The position numbers and the translations under genes were made by a program. The notes under the pieces are model-generated. The model was given only the letters and a program-made list of their open reading frames with translations. It did not search any database and was not told the DNA's origin. This document shows, in pieces, positions 47,380 through 49,949 of a stretch of DNA of 64,000 nucleotides (position 1 is its first letter; each line of letters opens with the position of its first letter). Source of the stretch: Hahella sp. KA22 (lineage in GTDB: Bacteria; Pseudomonadota; Gammaproteobacteria; Pseudomonadales; Oleiphilaceae); the NCBI RefSeq assembly GCF_004135205.1, contig NZ_CP035490.1, positions 1,116,001 to 1,180,000 on the forward strand, read 5' to 3'.

Positions 47380-48363
47380 ATGGCGCAGGCTTCTTTTCCA
47401 GTGGCTCGCCCCCGGCGTCTACGTCGCAATAACTCAATACGCGATCTGGTGCGGGAGACGGCGTTGCAGGTGGAGGATTTGGTGTACCCCCTGTTTGTCA
47501 TCCCCGGCGTTCAGCAGCGTGAGACGGTCGCTTCTATGCCCGGAGTTGAGCGGCTGTCGCCGGACTTGGCGGTGGAGCTATGCGTTGGCGCCTGGGGTAA
47601 TGGCGTGAAGGCGGTGCTGTTGTTTGGTCTGCCTGGGCATAAAGACCCGCAGGGCCGTAGCGCCTGGGAAGACGGGCCGGTGCAGCAGGCGTTGCGGCTG
47701 ATCCGGCAGGCGGCGCCAGGACTGACGCTGATCACGGATGTCTGTCTATGCCAGTATGCGGCGCACGGTCATTGCGGCGTGCTTTGCGGCGATGGCGTAG
47801 ATAACGATCGCACTCTGGATCTGTTGGCCAAGGTGGCCTTGAGCCACGCGCGAGCAGGCGCTGACGTGGTTGCTCCCGCCGCCATGATGGACGGTCAGGT
47901 GGCGGCGATTCGGCGTGCGCTGGACGCAGACGGATTCCAAGACGTATCCGTCATGTCCTACGCAGTGAAGTACGCATCCGCTTTTTATGGGCCCTTTCGG
48001 GATGCGGCGGATTCCGCACCCGCCGGCGGCGATCGCAAGCACTATCAGATGGACCCGGCCAACGTGCGTGAAGCAATGCGGGAGGCGGAGCTGGACGCAG
48101 CGGAAGGCGCCGATTTCCTGATGGTGAAGCCGGCGTTGGCGTACCTGGATGTGCTGCGTAAACTTCGCGACCGGTTCGACCTGCCCATGGCGGCTTATAA
48201 CGTCAGCGGCGAGTACGCCATGGTGAAAGCTGCGGCGGCCAACGGTTGGATTGATGAACGCAGCGTGGTGTTGGAAACCTTGCTGAGTATGAAACGGGCG
48301 GGCGCGGACATGATTATCAGCTATCACGCCCTGGATGCGGCGCGTTGGCTGCAGGAAACCTGA
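47380..48363 (+). CDS. hemB: Delta-aminolevulinic acid dehydratase
   Basis: Condenses two 5-aminolevulinate molecules to porphobilinogen in haem synthesis. The 327-residue protein has the zinc-binding Cys cluster DVCLCQYAAHGHCG near residue 125, the first active-site Lys in SYAVKYASAFYGPF near 196 and the Schiff-base Lys in FLMVKPALAYLD near 250. The Cys-rich loop makes it the zinc-dependent type. It follows the thiolase gene by 41 bases, which may be chance rather than a shared function. Confidence 0.97.
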   Translation: MAQASFPVARPRRLRRNNSIRDLVRETALQVEDLVYPLFVIPGVQQRETVASMPGVERLSPDLAVELCVGAWGNGVKAVLLFGLPGHKDPQGRSAWEDGPVQQALRLIRQAAPGLTLITDVCLCQYAAHGHCGVLCGDGVDNDRTLDLLAKVALSHARAGADVVAPAAMMDGQVAAIRRALDADGFQDVSVMSYAVKYASAFYGPFRDAADSAPAGGDRKHYQMDPANVREAMREAELDAAEGADFLMVKPALAYLDVLRKLRDRFDLPMAAYNVSGEYAMVKAAAANGWIDERSVVLETLLSMKRAGADMIISYHALDAARWLQET

Positions 48364-48385
48364 TCTCTGACTTCTGAACCTCTGG

Positions 48386-48566
48386 GCGCTGGCGGCTCGC
48401 CGCCAGCGCTTCTCCTTGCTATTAATCAGGCAGACAAATAGCTTCCTTCTATTTGTCTGCAACGACAGGGCCTGCACATGTCAGGCCCTGTCTCCCGCGG
48501 CTTAACGCCGCGCAGGCGCGTCCATGCGCCTGATGATTAACATGCCAATATCATTGCCATGTTAAT
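48386..48566. repeat. Six consecutive inverted repeats between hemB and ppnN
   Basis: Back-to-back perfect or near-perfect stems fill the convergent gap: 48386-48409 (10 bp, loop CTCG), 48430-48460 (12 bp, loop 7), 48464-48492 (11 bp, loop 7), 48496-48512 (6 bp, loop TTAAC), 48513-48532 (7 bp, loop 6) and 48536-48566 (9 bp outer stem plus 3 bp inner). From the second to the sixth the spacers are only 0-3 bases. There is no T-run, so they are not simple intrinsic terminators. One transcript could fold into a chain of hairpins. Confidence 0.85.
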
Positions 48567-48581
48567 AGCAAGGACGCATTC

Positions 48582-49949
48582 TTAATCCACAATGCGATAG
48601 CTGGGTACGTATTTGCTGCCCGGCAATTTCATCCGCTGTTGTTTCACGAAAGACTCCAGCAATGATCCGAAAGAGCCGACGATGGTTTTGTCGCCGCTGA
48701 TTTCGAATGGTCCCAGACGCTCCACCAGCTGCACGCCTTCTTCCTTGACGTTGCCGGATACGATGCCGGAAAACGCCCGTCGCAGATTCGCCGCCAGATC
48801 ATGAATCGGCTGTTCGCGATGTAACGCCAGCGCACGCATGCTCTCGTGGGTCGGCTGGAAGGGATGCTGGAATTCGGGCTGAACCTTCAGCAACCAGTTG
48901 TAGTAGTAGGCATCGCTGGAGCCCTTGCGGTGGTAAGTCACGTCCTGAATGCCTTTCTTCATTTCCAGGGCGACCAGTTCGGGGTCGTCGATGATGATGC
49001 GGTAACGACGTTGAGCGGCTTTCCCCAGGGTCAGGCCGATAAATTCGTTGATCTGGCCGAAATACTCTTCGTTTTTCTTGGCTCCGGCGAAAATCACCGG
49101 GAAGGGCAGTGAATCGTTCTCGGGATTGAGCAGAATGCCTAAGAGGTACAGGATTTCCTCCGCCGTACCCGCGCCGCCAGGGAAAACTACGATACCGTGA
49201 CCCAGACGCACGAAGGCTTCCAGGCGCTTTTCGATATCCGGCAGAATCACCAGCTCGTTGACGATGGGGTTCGGCGATTCGGCGGCGATGATGCCCGGCT
49301 CGGTCAAACCAATATAGCGTCCGGTCTGAATGCGCTGTTTGGCGTGGGCGATTGTGGCGCCTTTCATCGGCCCCTTCATGGCGCCGGGGCCGCAGCCGGT
49401 GCAGATATCCAGTCCACGCAGCCCCAGGGAGTGTCCGACTTCTTTGGTGAAGTCGTACTCGTCCCGGCTGATGGAATGGCCTCCCCAGCACACGACGATG
49501 TTGGGGTAACGACGTGGAATCAATACGCCGGCGTTCCGCAGCATATGGAAAATAAAGTTGGTGATGTCCTCGCCGTTGTTCAGATTCAGCTGCGTGTTGT
49601 GAGACAGCACGTTGTTGGCGTAAATGATGTCGCGCAGCACGGCGTAGAGGTGCTCTTGTATCCCCTTGATCATCTTGCCGTCGACAAACGCATTGTGAGG
49701 CGCGTTGATGACCTCCAGCTTGATGCCGCGGGCCTGTTGAATAAGCTGGATATCGAAATCGGCGAACTCAGCCAGAATGGTGTTGGGGTCGTCGGACTCG
49801 TTGCCGCAGTTTAATACGGCCAGAGCGCATTGCCGGAACAGGCGATACACGCCGCGATTGCTGCGGTCCTTCAACAGGTTGACTTCGTGTTGTGAGACCA
49901 GATCGAGGCTGCCTTCCGGGGCGATGCGTGCGGTTATTTTGTTACTCAT
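48582..49949 (-). CDS. ppnN: Nucleotide 5'-monophosphate nucleosidase PpnN
   Basis: Cleaves purine and pyrimidine nucleoside monophosphates to base and ribose 5-phosphate and is controlled by (p)ppGpp in E. coli. The 455-residue protein has the central LOG-like Rossmann domain with CWGGHSISRDEYDF, GLRGLDICTGCGPGAMKGPMKGA near residue 175 and VVFPGGAGTAEEI near 262 (the PGGxGTxxE signature), flanked by N- and C-terminal PpnN-specific domains that distinguish it from short LOG proteins. It is divergent from thiI. Confidence 0.93.
   Translation of the reverse strand: MSNKITARIAPEGSLDLVSQHEVNLLKDRSNRGVYRLFRQCALAVLNCGNESDDPNTILAEFADFDIQLIQQARGIKLEVINAPHNAFVDGKMIKGIQEHLYAVLRDIIYANNVLSHNTQLNLNNGEDITNFIFHMLRNAGVLIPRRYPNIVVCWGGHSISRDEYDFTKEVGHSLGLRGLDICTGCGPGAMKGPMKGATIAHAKQRIQTGRYIGLTEPGIIAAESPNPIVNELVILPDIEKRLEAFVRLGHGIVVFPGGAGTAEEILYLLGILLNPENDSLPFPVIFAGAKKNEEYFGQINEFIGLTLGKAAQRRYRIIIDDPELVALEMKKGIQDVTYHRKGSSDAYYYNWLLKVQPEFQHPFQPTHESMRALALHREQPIHDLAANLRRAFSGIVSGNVKEEGVQLVERLGPFEISGDKTIVGSFGSLLESFVKQQRMKLPGSKYVPSYRIVD

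Follow-up and report, generated by a model that had tools for sequence, protein, structure and literature searches.

Positions 48386-48566 of the window, that is, of the whole stretch of 64,000 nucleotides that was analysed, lie between the genes hemB and ppnN. The hemB gene, coding for delta-aminolevulinic acid dehydratase, occupies positions 47380 to 48363 on the forward strand (Pfam ALAD, E 7.7e-144), and ppnN, coding for pyrimidine/purine nucleotide 5'-monophosphate nucleosidase, positions 48582 to 49949 on the reverse strand (Pfam PpnN_C, E 1.2e-52). The Pfam matches and the strands of both genes confirmed that they are convergent, as initially annotated. The ppnN product shares 99% identity with its counterpart in Hahella sp. 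HN01 (L009).

The initial annotation described a train of six inverted repeats in this gap. All six stems were recovered from the sequence, and they were found not to constitute a single train: five of them belong to one element of 144 bp, whereas stem 1 (48386-48396/48399-48409, 11 bp) is a separate hairpin of the gap, placed outside the element. The element, MITE-like and built around five hairpins in tandem, extends from position 48422 to 48565 on the forward strand and is bordered by the left TA (48420-48421) and the right TA (48566-48567) of a target-site duplication, with one TA at the empty sites of relatives and two at filled sites. Hairpins 1 to 4, read on the same strand, are formed by 12 bp (48430-48441/48449-48460), 11 bp (48464-48474/48482-48492), 6 bp (48496-48501/48507-48512, with a loop that varies between subfamilies), and 7 bp (48513-48519/48526-48532), respectively. 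Hairpin 5, also on the forward strand (48536-48549/48553-48566), has arms of 14 nt that are 93% complementary; it consists of the right end of the element and an inverted, near-identical copy of that end, and extends one base into the right TA. An additional enclosing inverted repeat, 48413-48432/48555-48574 (20 nt, 85%), was absent from the initial list and is due to the element ends together with the near-palindromic target site.

The region 48370-48580 is tightly folded on both strands. The forward strand gave a folding energy of -112.1 kcal/mol against a mean of -64.5 for shuffled sequences (z -10.8), and the reverse strand a z of -9.7; none of 200 shuffles was as good in either case. These values, together with the dozens of near-identical copies described below, refute a chance run of inverted repeats, which the initial annotation had already judged improbable and to which we assign practically no probability. 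The T-run reported as missing was indeed missing: no terminator-like site was detected on either strand of 48340-48620, and an intrinsic terminator, defined as a GC-rich hairpin followed by a T-run, was rejected for this interval.

Stem 1 has a history of its own. The hairpin 48386-48409 was kept, though altered in sequence, in HN01/G005, G002, and G001, none of which carries the element in the gap (G000 to G006 designate seven Hahella genomes, G000 being that of the window). Hairpin 48386-48409 is possibly a shared transcription end of hemB and ppnN, though it has no T-run. In G001 this hairpin showed, by eye, an apparent change of a G-C to an A-T pair. Also in G001 (L192, approximately 2295-2715), a truncated copy of the element was located within the 3' part of hemB and was followed by unrelated sequence, so that approximately the last 25 codons of the gene are seemingly cut off from the rest; a rearrangement at the element is possible there.

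The element was found dispersed throughout the genome of the window (6.96 Mb, one contig). Of 160 candidates, 40 were scored, and all of these aligned at 95-100% identity along some 150 bp, with edges mostly at the same two points. A 31-base internal pattern, with up to three mismatches allowed, occurred at 79 places of this genome (41 forward, 38 reverse), and the reversed control of the pattern at none. A total of 87 near-full-length copies (75 + 12) were read in it. The set of full-length copies from four Hahella genomes comprised 126 sequences, 75 from the own genome, 22 from G002, 20 from G001, and 9 from G005, and TA was present at both ends of 111 of them; loci L215, L234, and L235, being duplicates of other loci, were excluded from this count and from that of the 91 distinct copies considered below (raw tally 114 of 129). 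The bases before the left TA were T in 59/126 copies, R in 95/126, and Y in 111/126, and those after the right TA were R in 101/126, Y in 98/126, and A in 55/126. Judged from these bases, the target would be a TA within a loose, roughly palindromic site, about TRY-TA-RYA.

Copies of different ages appear to coexist. The copy between hemB and ppnN is one of seven identical copies in its genome, and its insertion therefore belongs to a recent burst. Older copies occupy matching sites in two or three species (L132/L240, L174/L241, and L149/L232/L238). At two further loci of the own genome, L141 and L170, copies lie directly beside or within partial copies of the same element.

Empty sites were available at two loci. 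The hemB-ppnN gap of HN01, G005, and G002 lacks the element and contains one TA within a near-palindrome, and that of the window reads TA-element-TA, its right-hand bases differing from those of the relatives by substitution. The HN01 sequence equals that of G005 at this gap and the two may be the same strain, so the gap provides two independent comparisons; G001 was too divergent here to serve as an empty site. At the second locus, L129, one TA was found in G005, G001, and G002 and TA-element-TA in the own genome, again with an adjoining substitution. The TA is present once in relatives and twice in the own genome at both loci, which establishes the target-site duplication. At L129 the insertion interrupts the final sense codon of the gene upstream; the amino acid of this codon is unchanged, and a new stop contributed by the element follows it directly. 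In the relatives this upstream frame runs open for 647-648 codons up to its stop, and in the own genome it is open over the whole stretch examined.

The ends of the element resemble those of an insertion sequence (IS) resident in the same genome. The IS630-type transposase domain DDE_3 (PF13358) was detected at six places of the own genome, five of which represent a single IS, approximately 1.1 kb long, with three intact frames of 348 amino acids and two broken ones. Eight ends of this IS were read, and they vary around TATTAAYCCGGCAYCGATATA. The left terminal sequence of the element, TA included (48420-48443, forward strand), was identical to the nearest IS end in 18 of 24 positions, and the right one, TA included (48544-48567, reverse strand), in 20 of 24. 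When all 4557 TA-starting 24-mers of the window, on both strands, were compared with the eight IS ends, the two element ends ranked as the top two, and the next best reached 16/24. The left and right ends share TATTAA and GGCA and agree with each other in only 14 of 24 positions, so the terminal inverted repeats are weak. The core of the element showed no convincing similarity to the IS, the best match being the right end itself (E 0.002). As 144 bp is far too short for a transposase of 348 amino acids, the element does not carry its own. The same IS630-family IS yields miniature derivatives, as deduced from a 66-bp element (G000:C1:3276174-3276239; L276:305-370) in which two IS ends stand face to face with TA at both ends. 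The own genome also encodes, at L110:979-2022, a second, distant IS630-family transposase of 348 amino acids, 34% identical to the first; another TA-targeting transposase, for example this one, may be the helper.

Of the seven Hahella genomes, the element was abundant in four, decayed in one (G006), and not found in two. The covariance model matched 137 times in G000, 78 in G001, at least 150 in G002, 48 in G005, five in G006, and not at all in G003 and G004; 150 candidates were scored per genome, all of which matched in G002, and the 137 matches of the own genome may include partial matches or matches of the palindromic hairpins on the opposite strand. The DNA search matched five of 38 genomes, the own genome included, all from the same genus, and in a wider draw of 145 genomes of the order, with up to five candidates scored per genome, only the own genome matched. 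No match was obtained in phage records (query 48380-48580), in plasmid records (query 48420-48567), or in viral contigs (one exact 21-base pattern), in collections that may omit records near the genome of the window. Within the genomes and records searched, only part of the genus Hahella carries the element.

The distribution of the transposase broadly parallels that of the element. An intact frame was present in G000 (three), G001 (three), and G002 (one). In the draft genome G005 the transposase was represented by nothing longer than short pieces of its N and C termini; at least five of these lay no more than a few bases from the end of a contig, as would be anticipated for a repeat in a draft assembly. 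G003 contained a single fragment of 42 residues (62% identical), and G004 and G006 gave no match. G006, with five decayed element matches and no transposase match, can be reconciled with this pattern only by assuming loss of the helper in that genome.

The gene context of the copies was determined with a second-order coding model trained on the window, which, in 99% of leave-one-out tests, ranked true 300-bp segments above the best-scoring false frame; a fifth-order model was too weak. For 33 of the 75 own copies a flanking gene was called on each side; 19 of these copies lie between tandem, eight between convergent, and six between divergent genes. The called sides facing the element comprised 53 gene ends and 41 gene starts. 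Taken as raw counts, on the 33 copies called, these numbers show no excess of convergent gene pairs around the element.

Variation within the hairpin core was compared between paired and unpaired positions. Across 91 distinct copies, the mean minor-allele fraction was 0.028 at paired and 0.093 at unpaired positions (Mann-Whitney p 0.0004), although the higher unpaired variation is partly due to subfamily differences that fall in loops. The alignment, the covariance model, and the test for two-sided changes were based on 46 of 87 distinct sequences of 146-149 bases. In these 46 sequences, two-sided changes were found in nine of 49 pairs, against a mean of 2.1 in shuffles, none of 500 of which had as many; this shuffle control leaves the relatedness of the copies in. 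Slid versions of the structure had two to five pairs with two-sided change, and one of them (-3) reached a covariation score of 0.039, compared with 0.037 for the true structure, which weakens the covariation evidence. Pairing was broken in 180 of 4451 cells, which counts against strong constraint, and pair 122-142 (element numbering, TA included) was C-A in 24 of 91 sequences. The lower variability of the stems and the excess of two-sided changes suggest that the core may be maintained and, with these caveats, some maintenance of pairing may be assumed. The Rfam search recommended in the initial annotation gave no class match: no family reached the gathering threshold in the window, and at a relaxed threshold the best match scored 17.4 bits against a cut-off of 70. 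One pair of orthologous copies, L270 of the own genome and L239 of G005, has two changes in common in the 3' arm of hairpin 2, and only L270 has the matching 5' arm, where several bases differ together from L239 (by eye); this pair is a candidate for template switching or conversion.

Dispersal, fixed ends, doubling of the TA with respect to relatives, and IS630-like ends were all observed, and we conclude with high confidence that most of the run of hairpins is a single copy of a MITE, a non-autonomous transposable element, of the IS630/RUP type. Both designations, MITE and RUP-like, are based on features, and mobilisation in trans is proposed from the sequence. The transposase of the resident IS would bind the element ends in trans and excise the element, which would then insert at a TA inside a loosely palindromic target. 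The copy between hemB and ppnN represents a recent insertion between convergent genes, adjoining a hairpin that was already there. The five-hairpin core probably rides along, and may stay paired via selection or via template switching from arm to arm. Among the explanations initially offered, a hotspot of inserted palindromes came nearest, with the correction that a single palindrome-rich mobile element of 144 bp was inserted.

A bidirectional terminator cassette for hemB and ppnN would agree with the location between convergent genes and with folding on both strands. The lack of any terminator-like site and of a convergent excess among the copies called on both sides makes such a role unlikely, and hairpin 48386-48409 already exists in relatives without the element in the gap; we consider this explanation very improbable. 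A 3' end stabiliser for both genes, also suggested initially, was not upheld as the purpose of the element, which is missing from the gap in relatives and shows no convergent excess among the copies called on both sides. More broadly, the hairpins could be a structured RNA, or an element of mRNA 3' ends, whose spread is owed to its usefulness in RNase III processing, stabilisation, or transcript insulation. The reduced variation of the stems, the two-sided changes, and the strong fold on both strands speak for it. Against it stand the absence of an Rfam family at threshold, of any excess in orientation or of convergent genes among the copies called on both sides, and of the element itself at two orthologous sites in relatives; the evidence from variation is lessened by the relatedness kept in the shuffles, by the slid version and the broken cells, and by the subfamily share of the unpaired variation. 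This origin is doubtful, and of the initial proposal of a structured non-coding RNA there stands a possible structure with less variable stems and two-sided changes, and not membership of an Rfam family.

The pairing of the hairpins could instead be kept perfect by DNA mechanics, through template switching from one arm to the other or through conversion among copies, and not by functional selection. This is a reasonable possibility, to which we give somewhat less than an even chance: the shared 3' arm changes of L270 and L239, matched in the 5' arm of L270 only, favour it, but they constitute a single clear case, and conversion of L239 back to the family sequence explains it equally well. That the core of five hairpins is actively maintained as a module aiding the persistence of the element, either as RNA that shields neighbouring genes or is excised from transcripts, or as single-stranded DNA that aids the copying of the element, seems to us rather unlikely; if true, the element would be a MITE that carries structure as its cargo, and template switching from arm to arm would have perfected its hairpins.

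With the MITE as the preferred reading, a run of hairpins is explained as one mobile element and tied to its likely helper IS in the same genome. The Hahella element offers a clean system, with young copies, an intact helper, empty sites, and genomes with and without the element, in which to study the spread of structured MITEs and the reasons for the lasting pairing of their hairpins. An intergenic train of hairpins should be checked for dispersal before it is read as a regulatory RNA. No description of such an element in Hahella was found among the titles and abstract openings listed, and an earlier mention is possible.

According to the sources cited here, MITEs range from 50 to 500 bp and their transcripts typically form stable stem-loops (PMC10969869); the element, with 144 bp and many dispersed copies, has the size and dispersal of a MITE. 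Dispersed palindromes are shared with REP/BIME sequences (PMC2817692). A REP/BIME array was rejected, since there is no single repeated palindrome, as was noted initially, and TA duplication and IS630-like ends are found instead. The Correia/NEMIS elements of Neisseria are likewise small MITEs with TA ends and structured transcripts (PMC2229807), and transcripts bearing Correia elements are cut by RNase III (PMC10969869); their terminal repeat is described as 24 bp long (PMC2229807), whereas the ends of the Hahella element agree in 14/24 positions. CIR elements of Caulobacter and Brucella, compared by description, have separate 5' and 3' stem-loops, no end-to-end stem, and terminal TA (PMC2229807), with two arms where the Hahella element has five hairpins. 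By described features, the nearest known system would be RUP, the repeat unit of pneumococcus, with IS630-Spn1: RUP is 107 bp long, has about 110 copies per genome, and is proposed to be moved by IS630-Spn1 in S. pneumoniae (PMC3049150, PMC2229807). Both are small and tightly folded, with TA ends and ends like those of a resident IS630 element (PMC3049150, PMC2229807). RUP differs in its host and in being over-represented between convergent genes (PMC3049150), an excess not seen among the called copies of the Hahella element; the latter has five separate hairpins, and its ends do not form the main duplex. The kind of element is already known, and the Hahella family is an addition to the small bacterial repeats and not a site-specific regulator.
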